Below, piece after piece: positions 2-42,264 of a DNA stretch of 64,000 nt. Location of the stretch: positions 4,154,001 through 4,218,000 of the forward strand of contig NZ_CP042997.1 in assembly GCF_008087625.1 (NCBI RefSeq), written 5' to 3'. The stretch is from Aquisphaera giovannonii. GTDB taxonomy: Bacteria; Planctomycetota; Planctomycetia; Isosphaerales; Isosphaeraceae. Position 1 is the first letter of the stretch. Each line of letters begins with the position of its first letter. The notes beneath the pieces were generated by a model. The model saw only the letters and a program-made list of their open reading frames with translations. It did not search any database and was not told where the DNA came from. Made by a program: the position numbers and the translations under genes.

Positions 2-1945
2 GACCTCCTCATCCTCCTGGGCCGGGGCGACGGGACGTTCGCGCCCTACCAGCGGGCCGACCAGGTGGTCAAGCTCGCGGTCGGCGACATCGACGGCAAC
101 GGCCGGCCGACCTTCGTCCTGACCAACGAGGCCCGGGACGAGCTGGTCGTCACCACGCCGCAGGCGGGCCAGACCTTCCTCCAGGGGCGCGGCGAGGGCC
201 TTCTCGCCCCCAGCGACGTCAAGATCGCGGACCTGAACGGGGACGGCCTCTCCGACCTGCTCGTGGCCAACAGCGGCGGCAACGAGCTGCTCATCTACCT
301 CGGGATCGGCGGGGGCGCCTTCGCGTCGCCGCTGCGCGTCTTCGCGGGGACGAACCCCGTGGAGATCCAGGTCGGCGGCGTGGACGCGCACGGGCGGCGC
401 GACCTGTTCGTCACCAATTCGGGCTCCAACGACGTCAGCGTCTTCATCACCTACGTCGACGAGGCGGGATTCCAGGTCGAGCAGGGGCCGCGCCTGGCCG
501 CCGGGCTCTCCCCGGTCTCCACCACCGTGGCCGAGGTCGAGGGCGACGACCGGCCGGACCTCCTGGTCGTCAACCAGGGCGGCGACGCGGTGAGCCTGCT
601 GCTCGGGGAGGGGGGCGGTTTCTTCACCGACAAGGCGGCCCGCGTGTACCCCAGCGGCGAGGGGCCGATCCGCGCCTACGTGGGGCAGTTCGTCGGCGGC
701 CCCGGGAACGACCTGGTGATCGTGAACTCCGTCTCCAGCACCCTGACGGTCTACTCGGACTTCCTGAGTCCCGGGGCCGAGCCCATCACCGTCCCCACCG
801 GAGGGCTCGATCCGATCGCGGCCGTCGCGGGCGATTACAACGGGGACGGCTTCCTGGACCTGGTGGTCGCGAACAACGGGGACTCCCGGATCTCGCTCCT
901 GAACGGCGGTGCGTCCGGCATCGCCCTCGCCGACTCGTTCGTCCTGGGGGCTTCCGGGCGTCCCACCGGCGTCGTGGTCGGCGGGAAGGGCGGGGACTTC
1001 CGGTTCTACGTGAGCACCGAGGGGAGCAACTCGGTGCTGGACGTGACGTACCTGCTGGAGCTGCACGCGCCGGCCCCCTCGCAGAGCGCCTGGGCGGCGG
1101 TGCAGGCCCCGGGCGGGGAACGGCCGGTCGCCTCCATCGAATCCGCGCCGGCCGTCTGGTCGATCGGGTCCGGGGCCAATCCCGCGAGCCCCTCGACGTC
1201 GCAGTCCCTGGCGGCCATCATCCTGGCCGGCACGCCCGGGCCCTCGTGGGCGGCCGGCTCGTTCCTCGCCGGCCTCATCGGGACGCTCCAGGTGCTACCG
1301 CCGATGGCGGGGAACTCCCTCGCGTCCACGGTCACCGGCCTCCTCGCCGTGAACTGGGAGGAGACCTCCAGCGTGCTCCCCCTGCAGGACCAGTCCATGC
1401 CGGCGGTGGCCGTGCTGCTGTCCTCGGCCGCCGAGCCGGAGGCCCCGGCCGTCGCCGAGCCGGGCCGCCACGTCGGGCCCGCCGCGGAACCGCCGGCGGG
1501 CGGGGCCGGGGCAGAATCCGGGGCGGACCGGGTCGGCGAAGGGCCGTCCCCGGAGACGATCCTCAATCGGTACGTCTCGGGGGTCGACGACAGCCTGGAT
1601 CGGGCCGGCCGGCGGCTCAACGAGGAAGCCTTGACCGCCCCCGATGTCGTCGGGCCGGAGCGAGGCGAGCAGCCGGCCCCCGCGCCCGCCGGGGACGAGT
1701 CGGGATGGCTGCCGCCCGGCTGCCCGACGCTCCCGATGCCCGCCAGGCTGCTCCCCGCCGAGCCCTCCGACGACCCGGGAGAGGCCGGGCGGTTGTCCGA
1801 TGCGGGACGCCGGGAACCGAGGCCCGCGACCCCTCTCCTCGGCGCCGCCGCGGCCGTGCTCGCGGGCATCGGAGCGTTCCGGGTCCGGGCCCCGGCCGCC
1901 TGGGCCCGGCGAACAAATCGCCGGGGCCGCCGCCCCGTGGCCTGA
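2..1945 (+). CDS. FG-GAP/VCBS repeat protein, 5'-truncated by window edge
   Basis: The frame is open from the first full codon at position 2, so the start lies outside the window; 647 residues are visible. The first half holds repeated Asp/Asn/Gly-rich loops such as DIDGNGRP, DLNGDGLSDLLVAN and DYNGDGFLDLVVANNGD. These are the calcium-binding FG-GAP/VCBS motif of beta-propeller surface or secreted proteins. After about residue 340 the sequence becomes Ala/Pro/Glu-rich and low in complexity. It ends in a modest hydrophobic stretch (LLGAAAAVLAGIGAF) and a strongly basic tail (RRTNRRGRR), which may be a C-terminal membrane retention signal. Ligand and role are unknown. The next gene starts about 200 bases downstream on the same strand. 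Confidence 0.85.
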   Translation, partial: DLLILLGRGDGTFAPYQRADQVVKLAVGDIDGNGRPTFVLTNEARDELVVTTPQAGQTFLQGRGEGLLAPSDVKIADLNGDGLSDLLVANSGGNELLIYLGIGGGAFASPLRVFAGTNPVEIQVGGVDAHGRRDLFVTNSGSNDVSVFITYVDEAGFQVEQGPRLAAGLSPVSTTVAEVEGDDRPDLLVVNQGGDAVSLLLGEGGGFFTDKAARVYPSGEGPIRAYVGQFVGGPGNDLVIVNSVSSTLTVYSDFLSPGAEPITVPTGGLDPIAAVAGDYNGDGFLDLVVANNGDSRISLLNGGASGIALADSFVLGASGRPTGVVVGGKGGDFRFYVSTEGSNSVLDVTYLLELHAPAPSQSAWAAVQAPGGERPVASIESAPAVWSIGSGANPASPSTSQSLAAIILAGTPGPSWAAGSFLAGLIGTLQVLPPMAGNSLASTVTGLLAVNWEETSSVLPLQDQSMPAVAVLLSSAAEPEAPAVAEPGRHVGPAAEPPAGGAGAESGADRVGEGPSPETILNRYVSGVDDSLDRAGRRLNEEALTAPDVVGPERGEQPAPAPAGDESGWLPPGCPTLPMPARLLPAEPSDDPGEAGRLSDAGRREPRPATPLLGAAAAVLAGIGAFRVRAPAAWARRTNRRGRRPVA

Positions 1946-2037
1946 CCGGGCCCGCCACGCCCCTCCGCCGCGACGCTGCCCCGGGTCGTCCGCCTCGAAG
2001 CCCGCGTGCCGGGCCGACGCCCAGGAAGCGAATCCGC

Positions 2038-2087
2038 GATTGGGGTTGGCCCCGACTCGCCCGATTGGGGTTGGCCCCGACTCGCCC
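2038..2087. repeat. 25-bp perfect tandem duplication
   Basis: Two adjacent identical 25-base units (2038-2062 and 2063-2087) beginning GATTGGGGTTGGCC lie in the gap between the FG-GAP gene and the DUF429 gene. They read as a recent tandem duplication. No promoter or hairpin function is evident. Confidence 0.8.
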
Positions 2088-2143
2088 CGCCGGTTAACCT
2101 GAACTCCTGTCTAGGAGGCGGGACTGAAGGGTCGGAGGGGGAC

Positions 2144-2836
2144 GTGGGCGGACGACCGAGGCGGAGGCCGCGGGCGCCGGGGGTTTGCGTCGGGATCGAC
2201 CTCGCCGGCGTGGCGCACCGGGAGACCGGCGTGGCCGTGCTCCGCGCGGGGCGGTTGGAGCTCCTCACGTCGGCGGGGACCGACGAGGAGATCCTGGACC
2301 TGGCGCGGCTGGCCGGCCGCTGGGGGACGATCGCGGTGAACGCACCGCTCACCCGGCCGCTCGGGCGGTGCTGCCTGGACGACGACTGCCGATGCCGGAC
2401 TGACCCGGGCACGCGCAGCCGGCAGCTCGAGCGCGAGCTCGCGCGCATGGGAGTCCCGGCGCTGGCCACCGCGCTGATCAAGGTCCTGGCCCGGCGCGGC
2501 GCGACGATCGCCGCGGCGCTCCGGGAGATGGGCCACGAGCCGCTGGAGGTCTACCCGTTCGCCACGCTCCGCCTCCTGGGGCTCCCCTGGCGGGGCAAGA
2601 AGACCGCCGCCGGCCGCCGGAAGATCTACCGGGCCCTCCGGCCGCTGGTCCCCGGCCTGCGGCACCCTCGGGCCAGCGAGCACCAGCTCGACGCCGTCGT
2701 CTGCGCCCTCACGGCCCAGCTCTGGCGGCAGTGCCGCACGCGCACCGTCGGCATCCCGGAGGAGGGGCTCATGACCATCCCCCTGGTCCTCGATCCGGCC
2801 GGGTCGGCCCTTCCCCGTCGCGGGCGCAGGCCGTAG
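2144..2836 (+). CDS. DUF429 family protein (predicted RNase H-fold nuclease)
   Basis: 230 residues from a GTG start at 2144, preceded by a purine-rich ribosome site (GGAGGGGGAC). The frame stays open farther upstream to 2006, but that part runs through the tandem repeat and looks non-coding. Family landmarks are an N-terminal GIDLAG...TGVAV strand, an 'NAPL' segment near residue 65, EVYPFATLR in the middle and [12 protein letters not shown] near the C-terminus. DUF429 proteins usually carry Asp in the 'DAPL' segment; here it is Asn. A Cys-rich insert (CCLDDDCRC) follows it. Predicted to be cytosolic. The actual substrate is unknown, and I infer the nuclease fold from the family only. Confidence 0.75.
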
Positions 2837-6882: not shown

Positions 6883-8465
6883 CGAACGACGAGCTGGAAG
6901 CAGGATTCGACCGGCTCCGCGAGGAGTGGCCGGCCGGCTCCATGGTGGGCGAGGTGATGGCCCGGATCGACGCGGACCCGCTGCGGCGACGCCGCCCGCG
7001 GATGGGGCTCGTCGCGGGGGCCGCGGCGATGGGGTTGGCGGCGTCGCTCCTCCTGGCGGCGTTGATCATCCTCAGCCAGCCGAAGGACCTGCTGGCGGCC
7101 GTGCAGGGCGACTTGAAGAACGCCCAGGCGGCGCACCTCGTGACCACCGTCTGGGACGACCGGGAGCAGGAGGCCGGCCGGTTCGAGATCTGGTATCGCC
7201 GCGGCGAGGGACTCCGGGCCGAGCTCCCGGGGCAAGTCATCGTCGAGGACGGCTCCACGCAGTGGTCCTGGCAGACCGGGCCGCCGGAGGGCGGACGGGT
7301 CGTGCTCCGCCAGCGCAGCCCCGGGTTCTTCACGACGATGCTCCCCGGGATGCTCTCCCTCTCGGAGGTCCGCGAGGGTAAGCCGGTCCGGGCCCAAGAG
7401 CTCGACCGCCCGGTCGATGGCCATGCCTGCCAGGCATCGATCGTCGAGATCCATGCCGTCGGCCCCCCGGCACGCGGGATCGTCCTGGCGGAGCCGGGCG
7501 GCCGGATCCGCGAGATCAAGCTCGAGCGCCGCCGGGGCGACGGCGCCTGGCACCGCGAGCGTGAGATCCGGATCGAGTACGACGTGCCGATCCCGGCGGA
7601 GAAGCTCGCGTCTCGCCTCCCCGAGGGGGCCCGGGTAATCGATCGCGACGGCGCCTTCGACAGCCTCTATCCTTTCGATCGGGCCCTCCACCGCGTGGAA
7701 CTGGGCGGCCTGATCCTGGCCGTCCACGACATCCAGCCGCTCGTGGACCGCGAGGGATTCTATGTCGTCTCCTCGGTGCGAGGGACGCCGGAGTTCCTCC
7801 GGCAGTATCCCCCACGCCGGCGTCCGGTCAACTGGGAAGTCGTCGCGATCGACGTTGCCTACCAGCCGATGGGGAACGGGATGATGGGGGGGAAATACGA
7901 CCGCATCGTCCTCGGCACCGCGGCCCGCAATGGGGTTGAATTCTGCTGGTGGCTGCTGATCCCGCGCAAGTTCTTCATGGTCAAGGATGGTAAGCGGGAG
8001 TATCAGCCCCAGGACGACGTCTCGGCCATGCCCGGCGAGCCCGGCCGCCTGGACGACCTCCCGGGAAAGGCCAGGGTCCGGCTCGGGGCGATCTACTGGG
8101 ATGAGACGCACCGCGACGCCCGGGGCGTCCAGCAGGAGGTCTCGACCTGGGCCGAGGTCCCCCTGCCGCCCGACCGACCGCCGGCCACCATCGAGCATGT
8201 CGCCGCGCGGGCTCGTCGGGACATGCTCGCGATGGGAGCGGGAGGCGCCGGCAGTCTGCTCGGCATCGCCGCCGACTCGAAACCGGACGGGAACACCCTC
8301 CGGCCGACGTCCCACTTCGCGCCGGAGTCGGTCACCGACGGGGACTTCGCCGCCGCCGTCCGGCGGGGACTGGACGACCTCCGCAATCAGGACGAGGTCC
8401 GTCCGATCGGCTCGGACGACATTCTGCCGCCCGCGGGCGGAGATCGGCCGCGACAATCGGACTGA
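6879..8465 (+). CDS. Single-pass membrane protein coupled to ECF sigma factor (possible anti-sigma)
   Basis: 528 residues. The ATG at 6879 shares the ATGA overlap with the sigma factor stop. A short cytoplasmic N-terminus (LEAGFDRLREEWP) is followed by arginines and one membrane helix at about residues 42-66. The large remainder is predicted to be extracytoplasmic. No zinc-binding HxxxCxxC anti-sigma motif is visible. The outer part contains an LolA/outer-membrane-lipoprotein-like stretch (FEIWYRRGEGLRAELPGQ), by my reading only. The context makes it a candidate regulator of the upstream sigma factor, but the sequence does not prove that. Confidence 0.75.
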   Translation: MTNDELEAGFDRLREEWPAGSMVGEVMARIDADPLRRRRPRMGLVAGAAAMGLAASLLLAALIILSQPKDLLAAVQGDLKNAQAAHLVTTVWDDREQEAGRFEIWYRRGEGLRAELPGQVIVEDGSTQWSWQTGPPEGGRVVLRQRSPGFFTTMLPGMLSLSEVREGKPVRAQELDRPVDGHACQASIVEIHAVGPPARGIVLAEPGGRIREIKLERRRGDGAWHREREIRIEYDVPIPAEKLASRLPEGARVIDRDGAFDSLYPFDRALHRVELGGLILAVHDIQPLVDREGFYVVSSVRGTPEFLRQYPPRRRPVNWEVVAIDVAYQPMGNGMMGGKYDRIVLGTAARNGVEFCWWLLIPRKFFMVKDGKREYQPQDDVSAMPGEPGRLDDLPGKARVRLGAIYWDETHRDARGVQQEVSTWAEVPLPPDRPPATIEHVAARARRDMLAMGAGGAGSLLGIAADSKPDGNTLRPTSHFAPESVTDGDFAAAVRRGLDDLRNQDEVRPIGSDDILPPAGGDRPRQSD

Positions 8466-35406: not shown

Positions 35407-36194
35407 TCAGGCGGGGGCGGCGGGCGACTCGGGCGCGGGAATCGGGCCATTCATCGGGGACGAAGGCCCCGATCGACACATCCCCTCGCATCCGCATGCG
35501 GCCCGCAATCCTCACGGAATCCGGGCGGGGCGGGCCCGACGGGCGGATCCCCGGGCATGCCCCCGGGACCGCCCGCAATTGCAAGCAGGAATCCACGGTC
35601 CGGAAGAGATGAGGAAGTTTGCCCGCGAACACTTGTCCGAAAATACACGTCTCCGTCGCCATCACCGGCGACGTACCATCCTGACGCCACCCTCGCGGAT
35701 GCCCAAGTATCCTTGAGGCGAGTCGGCCCTGAAGGCCGGCTTGCTCGCGAGACGCCGCGGCGTCTCGGAGCGATGGGAGGCCGGATCCAAGGCCGCGAGC
35801 CACCGATGCCCGCGGCCGCCCGGGAGCGGATTCGCGATGCCGCCGCCGCCGCGACGGCGGCATCCCCGGCCGTCCCCGCCGGCCCGCCGGGCCGGGCGCG
35901 ATCCCGCCTCCGGCCCCGGCGGGGGCGGGCCGGAGGCCGCGGCAGCGGCCCCGTCCTCACCCCGCCGCGGAGGCCGGCGGCGACCCGCGGCGGAGATCCC
36001 ATCGAGGGCCATCCGAGATCATGTGTGCACGCGTTCCGGCGACGCGACGGGGGGCTCGCGCGGCCCCACGCACGCCCCGGGCGGCCCGGCCCGCGAGAGC
36101 AGCGATGCACGCCGAGATCGCGGCAGCCTTGATGGGACAACGTTGCCCATAGATCCTTGAGAACGTTTGCTTTCAAAGATCCGTCGATAGGTAC
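35407..36194. other. Gene-free region before the first ELWxxDGT gene
   Basis: Nearly 800 bases without a gene I can support. The right part (36120-36200) is richer in A and T than the surroundings. It holds an interrupted inverted repeat (CTTGAGAACGTTTGCTTTCAAAG, about 36152-36174) flanked by two AGATCC words, just upstream of the promoter; it could be an operator. A small GTCGCC/GGCGAC hairpin is at about 35655-35672. Confidence 0.5.
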
Positions 36195-36223
36195 TTGACA
36201 GCGATATATGCGCGGTGGATACT
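36195..36223 (+). promoter_or_regulatory. Promoter of the first ELWxxDGT gene
   Basis: Consensus TTGACA (36195-36200) and GATACT (36218-36223) are separated by 17 bases. The same two boxes with the same spacing stand before the second paralogue at 38488-38516. That repetition is strong support for a real promoter. Confidence 0.75.
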
Positions 36224-36488
36224 CACTGCCGCAATGTCGACCGGCGCGCCCCGATGCGTCTGCCACCGTCGCGATACCGCTGACACCGCGGAGCCGGGCC
36301 CATCGATTGCCCGGCCCCCCGAGCACGCCGGTCTCCCAGCCAGAGCAGCCTGACTCCGACCCCCCAAGCCGCGATCCATCCACGTCGGCCACCCCCCGCC
36401 CGGGCGCGGTGCGGCCGGCCCGCGCCCTCCCCGGGCCGCGACGCGATGGCGGCCTGGGCCACCCGAACCTCGACGCAAGAGTGCAATA
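36224..36488 (+). promoter_or_regulatory. Long leader of the first ELWxxDGT gene, shared with its paralogue
   Basis: About 265 bases between promoter and ATG. It begins with GTCGACCGGCGCG, then CCGATGCGTC near the start site, and ends in GGCGGCCTGGGCC, then CCTCGACGCA just before the gene. Both blocks and a central AGCACGCCGG recur in the leader at 38517-38766, while the sequence between has diverged. No ribosome site better than AAGAG precedes ATG 36489. Confidence 0.55.
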
Positions 36489-37829
36489 ATGATCATACTC
36501 TCAACGTTGAATTCTGTGCGGCCCTCCGCGCGCCGCCCCCGCCGCGCCCGCGTGGGCATCGAGGCGCTGGAGTCCCGCGACGTCCCCGCGACGCTGACGG
36601 GCATCACGCTGCCCTACGGGGCGGCCGTCACCTCGCCGCCGGTGGCCGCCGGCTCCCGCGTCTTCTTCGCCGCCAAGGACGCCACGCACGGCACCCAGCT
36701 CTGGGAGTCCGACGGCACCCAGGCCGGCACCGCCATGGTCACCGCCGCCAACGGCAACAAGGGCATCAACCCCACCTACATCACCGCCGTCGGCAACTCC
36801 GTCTACTTCGCCGCCAGCAGCGGCCTCAGCGGCGTCCAGCTCTGGAAGAGCGACGGCACCGCCGCCGGCACGACCATGCTCACCACCGCCAACCCCGTCA
36901 TCGGCATCGCCCCCAGCGGCATGGCCGACGTCAACGGCACCGTCTACTTCGCCGCCTACAAGCCCGGCGCGGGCCGCCAGCTCTGGAAGAGCGACGGCAC
37001 CGCCGCCGGCACCACCGTCGTCACCAACATCAACCCCACCGGCGGCGGCATCAACCCGGCCTACATCACCGGCGTCGGCTCGACCGCCTACTTCCGCGGC
37101 AACGACGGGGTCAGCGGGTCGCAGCTCTGGAGCAGCACAGGCGCCGGCGCGACCAGGCTGACCTCCGGAGGGGTCGCAGGAGTGGGGACGGCCCCGGGCA
37201 ACCTCACGGCCGCGGGGAACACCCTCTACTTCGTCGGCATGGACTCCACGGGCAGCCAGCTCTGGAAGAGCAACGGCACCCCCGGCGGCACCTCCCGGGT
37301 CACCAGCGTGGCGGCCGTCGGCGGGCTGAACCCGGCCGCGTTGACCGCGATCGGCTCCACCCTGTACTTCACCGCGAGGAGCGGCTCGAACGGGCCGCAG
37401 CTCTGGAAGAGCGACGGCACCGCGGCCGGCACCGCGGCGCTGACGAGCACGAACGTCGGCGGCAAGGGCCTCTCGCCGTCGCAATTGACGGCGGTCGGCA
37501 CGACGCTCTACTTCACCGCCAACGACGGCACCTCCGGCACGCAGGTGTGGAAGAGCAACGGCACGTCGGCCGGGACGGCGAAGGTGACGACCATCAACGG
37601 GGCCTCCGGGAGCTACGCGACGGGGCTCGTGGCCGCCGCGGGCGCCCTGAATTTCACGGCCTATACTTCAAAGACGGGCTACCAGATCTGGCAGACCGGC
37701 GGGACGGCGGGCACGTCCATGCTGACCAGCATGAGCACCGGCCGGACCTCCTCCCCGTCGACCTTGCTGGCGTTGGCGACGAGGCGCGTCTTCCTCGCGC
37801 CCGGCGCTTCGCTCTGGTCGCTCGCCTGA
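36489..37829 (+). CDS. ELWxxDGT-repeat protein, copy 1
   Basis: 446 residues. The N-terminus is RRARVGIEALESRDVPAT, the arginine-rich 'LE.R..PA' motif that starts many large planctomycete surface proteins. The body is made of eight or nine units of 45-50 residues, each with QLWKSDGTAAGT followed by a TxVGxTxYFxAxxGxxG part. This is the ELWxxDGT repeat (TIGR04534 type), predicted to fold as beta-propeller blades. There is no classic signal peptide. DNA 36538-37111 is identical to 38816-39389 of the next paralogue. Beyond that point the two proteins have diverged markedly. Function unknown; surface or secreted location inferred. Confidence 0.9.
   Translation: MIILSTLNSVRPSARRPRRARVGIEALESRDVPATLTGITLPYGAAVTSPPVAAGSRVFFAAKDATHGTQLWESDGTQAGTAMVTAANGNKGINPTYITAVGNSVYFAASSGLSGVQLWKSDGTAAGTTMLTTANPVIGIAPSGMADVNGTVYFAAYKPGAGRQLWKSDGTAAGTTVVTNINPTGGGINPAYITGVGSTAYFRGNDGVSGSQLWSSTGAGATRLTSGGVAGVGTAPGNLTAAGNTLYFVGMDSTGSQLWKSNGTPGGTSRVTSVAAVGGLNPAALTAIGSTLYFTARSGSNGPQLWKSDGTAAGTAALTSTNVGGKGLSPSQLTAVGTTLYFTANDGTSGTQVWKSNGTSAGTAKVTTINGASGSYATGLVAAAGALNFTAYTSKTGYQIWQTGGTAGTSMLTSMSTGRTSSPSTLLALATRRVFLAPGASLWSLA
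36538..37111 (+). repeat. 574-bp block identical to 38816-39389
   Basis: I aligned the two stretches by eye and found no difference over 574 bases (offset 2278). Identity starts just after the divergent first codons and ends inside the fourth repeat unit, at RGNDGV. Flanking sequence on both sides has diverged, so the block looks like recent gene conversion between the two copies. Confidence 0.9.
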
Positions 37830-38487
37830 GCCCCGCGGCGCCGGGCTTCGACGCGATGCGGGCCGGCACGGGTCCGCCCGGTCCGACGCCCGGCTCCGGA
37901 CGCCCTGGAAGTCATCGCCCGGGGACGAGGCGTCGTCCCCGGGCCCGCAGCATCGCGGAGCGGTGATGGGATGCGGATTTCCGCCGTCCGGGGGAGCAAT
38001 TCCCCCCCCTCTGGTGGCGTGGTCCATCCGGATTCGCCGCCCCGGCGTCAATCGATCGTCCCGATGGAGACCGCCGACCGGCTGAGGGCTCGCCAATCCA
38101 GGCCCCCACGCATCGCCTCGACCATCACGCCAAATCAGGATTGACCCGAGACGAGACGCGGCTCGACAGGCGCGAAGCAATCCCATGCACCCATTTACAA
38201 GCGATTTCCCCAGACAACCAAGCTTACTTACACCGCACCAACCCCGCCGACCGCGTACGACGGACACCATCGGGGACATATCCCCACATGATCACGGCGA
38301 CACACCTCCTGTTCTCATCGGTCGCCGACGCGCACTATGATTGGCGTGGAGACCCCGCGAAATCCGCGGCGTCCCCCGGGCCGATGCGAGCGAGGTGCCA
38401 TGCGGTGATGCGACGGTCGCGCCACGAGGTCAGGGTTGATACTTAACAAGGAATGGTCTTATTTTTGCCACATTCCTAATTAAGTTA
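37830..38487. other. Gene-free region between the two ELWxxDGT genes
   Basis: No gene is supported in this stretch. From about 38430 to the promoter the sequence becomes distinctly A+T-rich. It contains AGGAATG and CATTCCT as a 7-base inverted repeat around a T-rich loop (about 38450-38478) directly upstream of the -35 box. It may act as an upstream activating or operator element. Confidence 0.5.
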
Positions 38488-38516
38488 TTGACACCCACCG
38501 AATCGACGACGATACT
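38488..38516 (+). promoter_or_regulatory. Promoter of the second ELWxxDGT gene
   Basis: TTGACA (38488-38493), 17 bases, GATACT (38511-38516): identical boxes and spacing to the promoter of the upstream paralogue, in an A+T-rich stretch. Confidence 0.75.
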
Positions 38517-38766
38517 TTCCTCGCAACGTCGACCGGCGCGCACCGATGCGTCCGCCCGCTCCGTCAACCGATGTCGGAGCGGCTCAAGGCCAAAGATGGC
38601 CCGATAGCCCAGCACGCCGGCCTCGCAATAAGTGCATCCTGACGCCGACCGCCAGGCACGCAATCCGATCGTGGCGACACCCGGCCCGCTGGGCCGTGGT
38701 CCCTCCGGTCCTGCGCGCGATGAAGGCGGCCTGGGCCTTCCCCGACCTCGACGCACGAGGAACATC
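38517..38766 (+). promoter_or_regulatory. Long leader of the second ELWxxDGT gene
   Basis: About 250 bases. It shares GTCGACCGGCGCG, then CCGATGCGTC at its start, AGCACGCCGG in the middle, and GGCGGCCTGGGCC with CCTCGACGCA at its end with the leader of copy 1. The duplicated unit therefore included promoter and leader. A GAGGA ribosome site precedes ATG 38767. Confidence 0.55.
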
Positions 38767-40113
38767 ATGCTCATGCTCCCGATGAGGAACTCCTCCCGTC
38801 TGGCCGATCGTCGGTCCCGCCGCGCCCGCGTGGGCATCGAGGCGCTGGAGTCCCGCGACGTCCCCGCGACGCTGACGGGCATCACGCTGCCCTACGGGGC
38901 GGCCGTCACCTCGCCGCCGGTGGCCGCCGGCTCCCGCGTCTTCTTCGCCGCCAAGGACGCCACGCACGGCACCCAGCTCTGGGAGTCCGACGGCACCCAG
39001 GCCGGCACCGCCATGGTCACCGCCGCCAACGGCAACAAGGGCATCAACCCCACCTACATCACCGCCGTCGGCAACTCCGTCTACTTCGCCGCCAGCAGCG
39101 GCCTCAGCGGCGTCCAGCTCTGGAAGAGCGACGGCACCGCCGCCGGCACGACCATGCTCACCACCGCCAACCCCGTCATCGGCATCGCCCCCAGCGGCAT
39201 GGCCGACGTCAACGGCACCGTCTACTTCGCCGCCTACAAGCCCGGCGCGGGCCGCCAGCTCTGGAAGAGCGACGGCACCGCCGCCGGCACCACCGTCGTC
39301 ACCAACATCAACCCCACCGGCGGCGGCATCAACCCGGCCTACATCACCGGCGTCGGCTCGACCGCCTACTTCCGCGGCAACGACGGGGTGCACGGCAGCC
39401 AGCTCTGGAGCACCACGGGCTCCGGCTCGTCGATGTTGACCAACGTCAACGTGAGCGGCGGCGGCCTGGCCCCGGGCAACCTGACCGCGTTCAACGGCAC
39501 GCTCGTCTTCGCGGGAATCGACTCCACCGGCGTGCAACTGTGGAAGAGCGACGGCACCGCCGCCGGCACCGCGAAGTTCGCCAGCTCCTCCAACCCCGGC
39601 GGCCTATCCCCCTCCTGCCTCAGGGTCGCGGGCAACACGCTCTACTTCGCGGCAAGCGGCGGGGCGGGCCTGGGAGGCCAGCTCTGGAAGAGCGACGGCA
39701 CGACGGCGGGGACGGTGATGCTCACGAGCATCAGCGCGGGCGGCAAGGGCCTCTCGCCGTCGCAGTTGACGGTGGTGGGCTCGACGGTCTACTTCGCGGC
39801 CAACGACGGGACCTGCGGGATGCAGTTGTGGAAGAGCGACGGAACGACGGCGGGGACGCAGCTCGTCACGGCCATCAACGGCAATGCGGGCTGCAACGCC
39901 TCGACCCTGACCAACGTCAGCGGCGTCCTCATGTTCACGGCATACACGACCACCTATGGGTACCAGGTCTGGAAGAGCGACGGCACCTCCGCCGGCACGA
40001 CGATGCTGACCGGCATGAGCACCGGGAAGACCTCGGCCCCGGTGAGCCTCGTTTCCTTCGGCGCCGACCTCTACTTCACGGCGCCGGGTGCCTCGTTCTG
40101 GGTGCTGGCATGA
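38767..40113 (+). CDS. ELWxxDGT-repeat protein, copy 2
   Basis: 448 residues from ATG 38767 (MLMLPMRNSS), which follows GAGGA; the frame is open farther upstream but that part is the leader shared with copy 1. The architecture matches copy 1: RRARVGIEALESRDVPAT, then repeated WKSDGT(A/T)AGT blades. Residues from about 18 to the end of the fourth unit (RGNDGV) are identical to copy 1 because of the 574-bp identical DNA block. The later units differ, for example GVHGSQLWSTTGSGSS against GVSGSQLWSSTGAGAT. Probably a secreted or surface beta-propeller protein, retained as a variant pair. Confidence 0.9.
   Translation: MLMLPMRNSSRLADRRSRRARVGIEALESRDVPATLTGITLPYGAAVTSPPVAAGSRVFFAAKDATHGTQLWESDGTQAGTAMVTAANGNKGINPTYITAVGNSVYFAASSGLSGVQLWKSDGTAAGTTMLTTANPVIGIAPSGMADVNGTVYFAAYKPGAGRQLWKSDGTAAGTTVVTNINPTGGGINPAYITGVGSTAYFRGNDGVHGSQLWSTTGSGSSMLTNVNVSGGGLAPGNLTAFNGTLVFAGIDSTGVQLWKSDGTAAGTAKFASSSNPGGLSPSCLRVAGNTLYFAASGGAGLGGQLWKSDGTTAGTVMLTSISAGGKGLSPSQLTVVGSTVYFAANDGTCGMQLWKSDGTTAGTQLVTAINGNAGCNASTLTNVSGVLMFTAYTTTYGYQVWKSDGTSAGTTMLTGMSTGKTSAPVSLVSFGADLYFTAPGASFWVLA
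38816..39389 (+). repeat. 574-bp block identical to 36538-37111
   Basis: Second member of the identical pair described at 36538-37111. It ends where the sequence changes from GGGGTCAGC in copy 1 to GGGGTGCAC in copy 2. Confidence 0.9.
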
Positions 40114-40750
40114 CGACCGCCCCGCGAGACTGATAGCCGATCCGGCTGGAATCCGAGCCTGGGCAGAAATGCGCGGACATGCTGACCTCACCCGGAGTGC
40201 GTTGCAAGGCTCCGCTCGGCGAGGTCGGCATGTCCACGGCCGTTTCATCCACGCCTCCATCGTCCGCGACGAGAGACGCGAACGGACTCATTTCGACGAA
40301 GGGGCGCATCGCCCCATGAAGTACGTCCGGCCGACTCTCGTGCCGGGCGCGAGCGGCAACTCCGGGAGGGGAGGGCCGGCTCCCTCGCGTCGGATGACGT
40401 CGCAGCAGGAACGCGGCCCGCGTCGAGGCCGGCTAAGTCAATCCCCGGCGGGGCCGGGGTCGAGGCGACGGCCGTGACGGGTCAGCAGCCTGCCGCCAGG
40501 TGGTCGGCGAGGATCCTATGGGGCTGCGATCGTCCTCGACCTCGTCCGCGACTCCGGGCGCTTCGGAGCCGAGCGGACGGCGTTGCGTCGTGAGCCGGGT
40601 CGAGCTCGGCCGACGTGCTGCTTGAGCGGTCGCTCCGGGGCGGTCGGCGTCGCCTCGTGACCAATGAAAAGGCCCCGCGCGGGGGATGACCTCGCGCGGG
40701 GCCGGAGATTGTTGACGATGCCGGGGCTTCCCGGCGCGAAGCAGCCCGGG
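40114..40750. other. Gene-free region between convergent genes
   Basis: Lies between the stop of the second ELWxxDGT gene and the stop of the minus-strand PEP-CTERM gene. Apart from the terminator at 40667-40703 I see no supported feature. Open frames here read as Arg-rich, non-coding-like peptides. Confidence 0.5.
40667..40703 (-). terminator. Intrinsic terminator of the PEP-CTERM gene
   Basis: Read on the minus strand, GGCCCCGCGCG pairs with CGCGCGGGGCC across a loop of about 11 bases, and the hairpin is followed by TTTTCATT. It lies about 50 bases past the stop of the gene ending at 40751. This is the best intrinsic terminator in the window. Confidence 0.8.
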
Positions 40751-41533
40751 TCAGGCGGCGTGCGCCTCGGCCTGGCCGCGGCGACGCTTCCAGGCCGCCG
40801 CGAGGAGGGCCAGCGGGAGCCCCACCGACAGCGAGACGACGCCGACCGGCTCGGGGACGGCGACGGTGGTGACCTGCGTGTTCACCGTGAAGGTGTCGGT
40901 CGCGCCGGCCGTCGGGATGGTGAAGCTGATGGTGTTGGTCAGCGAGTAAGGCGTCGTGAAGGAGGCGATGGTCGCCCCGATCGCCTGGTTGAACGAGTCC
41001 GGCGTCGTCTTGGTGGAGCTGAAGTCCGCGGGGCCGGCGGTCACGCTGGTGCCGCCGCCGTACATGCTGTTGACCGACTGCGAATTCCCGGCGCCGGCGA
41101 GATTGAAGTTCCCCGTGACGGTCGTGTTCAGCTCCCCGGACGGACCGGTCGGCGCCCCGAACCCGTCCTGAGTCTCGGTGATGATCAGCGTGGTGTCGCC
41201 GGTCCCCAGGCTCGTGACCAGGCCGCTCATGTTGAGCGTACCCGCCACCGCGGTGCCCGTGTAGTTGCTGTTCCCGCCGAGGTTCGTGAACTGGTAGGCC
41301 GAGCCGAGGGTCCCCAGCAAACCGTTCAGGCCGGTGGTGTCCACCGTCGCCTGCGTCAGGTCGGGGCTCACGGTCACGAACGCGCTGATGTCGAGGTCGG
41401 TGACGCTGCTCGTCGTGATGGTGAACGTGATGGGGCCGGCAGCCGCCTCGCGCCATCCCGACGCGAGCAAGGCCACGCCGCAGGCCATCGCCGCCACGAA
41501 GCTACGGCGGCTGAATGCGAAAACTCGTCCCAT
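40751..41533 (-). CDS. PEP-CTERM sorting-domain protein
   Basis: 260 residues from ATG 41533, with GAGGAG five bases upstream; a longer frame to 41599 lacks a site. A signal peptide is clear (RRSFVAAMACGVALLASGW, cut near AAA-GP). The mature part is Ser/Thr/Gly/Asn-rich and beta-strand-like with almost no charged residues. The C-terminus has the full PEP-CTERM signal: VPEP, a hydrophobic helix (VVSLSVGLPLALLAAAW) and KRRRG. Such proteins are processed by exosortase and delivered to the surface or extracellular matrix. No exosortase gene is in the window. An intrinsic terminator follows. Confidence 0.92.
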   Translation of the reverse strand: MGRVFAFSRRSFVAAMACGVALLASGWREAAAGPITFTITTSSVTDLDISAFVTVSPDLTQATVDTTGLNGLLGTLGSAYQFTNLGGNSNYTGTAVAGTLNMSGLVTSLGTGDTTLIITETQDGFGAPTGPSGELNTTVTGNFNLAGAGNSQSVNSMYGGGTSVTAGPADFSSTKTTPDSFNQAIGATIASFTTPYSLTNTISFTIPTAGATDTFTVNTQVTTVAVPEPVGVVSLSVGLPLALLAAAWKRRRGQAEAHAA

Positions 41534-41599
41534 TCTCTGCTCCTCTCGTCGAAGTTGCGTCTCGAAGAACCGAAAGATGACCGACCTACCCCGCGTCAT

Positions 41600-42264
41600 C
41601 CTTGTGGCCCCGGCCGTCGTTCATCCCCGCAAGGGCCCAGGCGCACGCCGACCTTCCCGGACCGCGCATACCCTATACTTGAAAGATGAATCTGCTTTCA
41701 CAACAGCATAGCCTCTGCCGCAAAGCAAGCCTTGCATGAGTACAGCCAGCCCAGCAGGCCTGTATCCATTGGCAAACGTTATGCCGCACGACCGAGGATC
41801 AGGTAATCAGTCCATTGATGCAGCCATCCATACTGCCAAGCACCGTCGCGAGGGACGATGCGACCTTCCGAACCAGCCCATGAAGCCGGGCGTGTTTGGT
41901 GTCCAGTAGAAGTTAACGAGTCGCCGTTTCAAAAGAAGGAGCGATCGTCTTCATTAAAGATTATAAAGGTGGTTGTTTCAATTTTTCAACGACGGGCCCT
42001 CGGCCACAGAGTATGTTCAACGTCGTCTGCGTCGCATCCCTTTATCAAATAACGACTTACCAATCCCATTCGGCCGCCGGACGCGGGACGTCCATCCGGG
42101 CCGCAGGGCAGTAACGCGGATGGCCGCCGGGATGGACGGACACCATCCGGCCCGCATCGCGAGCGAAGGGGCGTTCGTCGCGGGAGCTGGACGATGGAAT
42201 CCCGGTGATAGCAGCGAGCCGGCGGGCGGGGCCGTCGCGACGGTGCCGGGAAGGGCGGCCGTGA
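41600..42264. other. A+T-richer gene-free region with a minus-strand promoter
   Basis: Between about 41670 and 42060 the base composition is clearly less G+C-rich than in the rest of the window. No convincing gene was found on either strand. A 64-codon frame from 41858 on the plus strand is the best candidate but has no recognisable family. The composition may mark foreign or decaying DNA. Confidence 0.5.
41960..41989 (-). promoter_or_regulatory. Sigma-70-type promoter pointing toward the PEP-CTERM gene
   Basis: On the minus strand, TTGAAA (41984-41989) is followed after 18 bases by a perfect TATAAT (41960-41965). It would start transcripts near 41953, leaving a leader of about 420 bases before the PEP-CTERM start at 41533, or serving a small RNA. 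Confidence 0.5.

Follow-up and report, generated by a model that had tools for sequence, protein, structure and literature searches.

The window analysed here, a 64 kb stretch of the Aquisphaera giovannonii chromosome, contains two tandem genes coding for ELWxxDGT-repeat proteins that share 574 identical bases. We consider it very probable that an old tandem duplication was followed by recent gene conversion over this block, and that the two genes are identical there because part of one gene was recently replaced by the corresponding sequence of the other. The identity is exact, diverged homologous sequence lies on both sides, silent sites are unchanged within the block and saturated outside it, and the genome holds no third copy. 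Gene A (36489-37829) codes for a protein of 446 amino acids and its tandem paralogue gene B (38767-40113) for one of 448; both are on the + strand, ~2.3 kb apart. Each product has eight matches to the ELWxxDGT repeat family (NCBIfam TIGR04534), far over the curated cut-off of 65 bits (288 bits and E 9e-88 for A, 314 bits and E 6e-96 for B). Unlike many relatives in this family, A and B have mostly QLW in place of ELW, and their about 450 amino acids make up one predicted propeller, whereas many relatives have open frames longer than 1200 amino acids.

The first-pass annotation of this DNA had described 36538-37111 and 38816-39389 (both +) as matching base for base, and they do so over exactly 574 bp, with no extension of the exact match possible at either end. 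In both genes the block starts at codon 17 and ends midway through the fourth repeat unit, and so takes in, as had also been noted, the N-terminal motif and the first repeat units. Of 1338 bases in the codon alignment of the two genes, 252 differ, all of them outside the block (0/570 coding bases within it). Shuffling the same differences 10,000 times gave identical runs of at most 79 bp compared with the 574 bp found, and the silent-codon run was 184 vs 54 in the shuffles. The sequence on either side had been called diverged, correctly: DNA identity is 59% over the first 17 codons and 68% downstream of the block, where 231 of 717 aligned bases differ and protein identity is 59%. These diverged 3' parts occupy 37112-37829 (+) in gene A and, in the codon alignment with it, 39390-40113 (+) in gene B. 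Homology extends also to the other side, since 36188-36514 (+), which comprises the upstream region and the start of gene A, is homologous to 38481-38792 (+) of gene B, with 67% identity and gaps over the ~330 bp upstream (blastn).

Silent sites differ sharply between the two parts of the genes. Where the A and B tails share a residue, 46 of 96 fourfold sites are identical vs 44.7% expected for independent sequences, and by this comparison the silent sites of the tails are saturated. For four neighbour genes compared with those of a congeneric genome (G001), fourfold identity is 62-68% (expected 46-50%), so that silent divergence between the A and B tails exceeds that between the two species at this locus. 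Within the block none of ~150 silent sites differs, and its silent divergence is therefore <0.02 at 95%. Because the tails are saturated and the block is unchanged at silent sites, the duplication is old and the block was homogenised recently. Silent sites identical within a tract and diverged outside it (0/150 vs saturation), the tract itself being bordered on both sides by diverged homologous sequence, are what conversion between paralogues leaves. It is this identity next to saturation just downstream that strongly supports gene conversion, and in this the interpretation of the first-pass annotation stands, while its surface-variation part, treated below, does not. Had the 5' part been duplicated recently and the tails then been replaced or diverged fast, an identical 5' block would likewise result, but we find this very unlikely. 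On the 5' side, too, the sequence (330 bp upstream plus the first 17 codons) is homologous but diverged, so that both sides would have to be replaced; moreover, the genome has no third paralogue that could serve as a source, and silent saturation of the tails requires a long time.

In the sequence of events that we propose, one ELWxxDGT propeller gene would have been duplicated long ago together with its upstream region, giving the tandem paralogues A and B. Much later, non-reciprocal homologous recombination (gene conversion) would have overwritten 574 bp or more of one gene with the sequence of the other, starting at codon 17 and stopping midway through the fourth repeat unit. This would have erased the differences there, while both flanks stayed diverged. 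The mechanism would be of RecA type, the exchange probably took place directly between A and B, and the event may have had no special function. Both hybrid reading frames were left open, with one breakpoint inside a propeller blade. This reconstruction draws on one genome of the species. An assembly artefact giving rise to the identity is exceedingly improbable. Assembly errors usually collapse repeats and seldom create one between distinct flanks, 574 bp is short relative to long reads, and the chromosome is a single contig of 10.37 Mb. The genome of A. giovannonii OJF2 was published with two plasmids (PMC7716859).

Searching the whole 10.5 Mb genome (10,526,296 bases in three contigs) for other copies of the block, a check that the first-pass annotation had proposed, returned none. 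Neither partial or silent cassettes nor variant copies of the gene were found in the genome, which has two gene copies only. No other exact repeat in the window is as long as the block, and a sample of the same chromosome (20 stretches of 20 kb, 400 kb in all), in which other tandem duplicates are present, has none longer than 227 bp. Two further repetitive loci were observed. At L087 14805-18481 (G000:C1:1614805-1618481) a tandem pair of genes with methionine/glycine-rich (GGM) stretches is near-identical along most of the gene length, exact runs reaching 205 bp; this pair is probably a recent duplication or conversion. At L092 12869-19999 (-) a very long open frame consists of about 552-bp repeats with exact runs between units of up to 227 bp, and the units look like tandem signalling (HAMP-like) units.

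The block has in addition a peculiar codon composition. Its fourfold sites are 83% C, vs 53-54% in both tails and a sample mean of 0.52, and in its repeat part (36615-37109 and 38893-39387) they are 89% C with none being A or T, which ranks with the strongest extremes of the sampled genome. None of 4333 windows sampled from other genes reaches the fourfold C value of the block. This bias could also reflect a third source, now lost or foreign, from which the block of both copies would derive, but the trees do not favour it and we regard such an origin as highly improbable. It requires two events, the nearest relatives elsewhere are only about 51-58% identical in protein, and the codon bias of the native suf genes is nearly as extreme. 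Furthermore, in the head tree the block falls into the subfamily to which the tails belong. Actually, both head and tail trees group A and B with the genes of G013, G019 and G015, and a foreign source is for this reason not called for. A foreign origin of the block was also rejected after no near relative appeared in 45 genomes of the family, 297 genomes of the class and a scan of GTDB contigs. Silent identity to the G001 gene (0.62 in the block vs 0.46 in the tails) had suggested that A and B were mosaics, with a head from the syntenic gene and a tail from another subfamily; this was rejected because the head and tail trees agree.

For gene conversion between A and B, the same composition bears on the direction. 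If one gene was the donor, no break in its own composition would be expected at the block edge. Fourfold sites in the 80 codons past the block are 70% C in gene B, still below the repeat part of the block (p=0.004), and 58% C in gene A, the difference between A and B there not being significant (p=0.24). The gentler fall in gene B hints weakly, and short of significance, at B as the donor. Selection on the DNA itself, holding the block identical in both genes, is scarcely credible: nothing was found in favour of DNA-level selection on the block, and the block region has only 57-66% DNA identity to the G001 and G027 genes.

The product of gene A was modelled with AlphaFold2 as a single beta-propeller (pLDDT 82.6, pTM 0.83). 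Its predicted ring of blades matches solved propellers, the best structural match being Cake9 (PDB 6tjh; Z 20.6, 339 residues, rmsd 4.3), a designed propeller with which it has the fold alone in common (12% identity). Within the tract, at 36558-36590 (+), lies the N-terminal motif IEALESRDVPA (ExLExRxxPA). The ExLExRxxP core has been reported to act as a signal for the cell surface in planctomycetes (PMC8567305), and the corresponding Pfam motif is PF07595, Planc_extracel (Studholme et al. 2004, as cited in PMC8567305). The core consensus is present by eye in A and B, although the PF07595 model gave no match to either protein at E up to 1; there is a weak sub-threshold match in the G001 protein. 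Because IEALESRDVPA fits the core, even with PF07595 not matching, both proteins are probably exported to the cell surface, and each is predicted to be one closed beta-propeller behind a surface-export-type N-terminal motif.

The first-pass annotation had gone further, proposing that a fixed N-terminal module could generate surface variation. Conversion would then be recurrent, with a constant N-terminal half and C-terminal blades exchanged to vary the surface protein. The fit of the motif to the export consensus and the end of the tract in mid-propeller would agree with this, as would the rapid evolution of the protein, which outpaces most neighbouring proteins (43-45% vs 69-94% identity). 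However, antigenic or cassette variation draws on an archive of variant or silent copies, and here there are two copies only and no partial cassettes. The conversion event also made A and B more alike. A comparable shared exact block was sought in 22 other loci with ELWxxDGT proteins and none was found, the longest exact repeat being 110 bp, at one repeat period. Besides, across genera the block is barely better conserved than the tails: protein identity to G027, of another genus, is 40-41% in the block and 37-41% in the tails. To the congeneric G001 the block is somewhat more conserved, with 49-55% vs 41-45% in the tails. We dropped the surface-variation claim because the genome has neither a third copy nor a cassette, block and tails are similarly distant from G027 and the two genes were made more alike; a variation system of this kind is very unlikely.

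The two genes lie in what looks like a fast-changing island (35407-42264) between ridA and a cytochrome c gene, with different ELWxxDGT subclades here and in G001. In G001 the same neighbours are found in the same order with a single ELWxxDGT gene between them, which belongs to another subclade and groups with the G027 gene in both head and tail trees. In G013 and G002, ridA adjoins the cytochrome c gene and no ELWxxDGT gene was detected between them. Convergent to the ELWxxDGT genes of the window is a gene for a PEP-CTERM-like protein (40751-41599, -), a neighbour found also in G001 and G027 and probably in G015. Other such convergent genes were seen at L041 4921-5733 (+), L043 about 7455-8300 (-) and L051 about 1760-2608 (-), so that the pair occurs in four genomes, which represent at least three genera. 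Of the four PEP-CTERM-like proteins, three show detectable homology to one another (31-33%). The PEP-CTERM-like gene and the ELWxxDGT gene may form a conserved two-gene surface module. That the propellers and this partner constitute a fast-evolving surface island of the Isosphaeraceae, in which conversion repeatedly reshuffles blades in closed propellers, is very unlikely.

Nothing turned up in the literature searched on ELWxxDGT proteins or on intragenomic conversion in bacteria generally. Of the published cases found, the nearest parallel is the pair PE_PGRS17/PE_PGRS18 of Mycobacterium tuberculosis, in which conversion was followed over many strains and recurs and reverses (Karboul et al. 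2006, PMC1762029). There too, a stretch of one of two GC-rich repetitive bacterial tandem paralogues was overwritten by the other. Unlike that pair, A and B come from one genome, have one perfectly identical tract, are far more diverged as paralogues and code for proteins unrelated to those of that pair. The tract in A and B is real, well-supported and ordinary in kind, and as a single event by a known mechanism it alters little else. It provides, for a planctomycete, a clean case of old tandem paralogues with a recent conversion between them, and a caution that a common N-terminal half in such pairs need not signal functional constraint or a young duplication.
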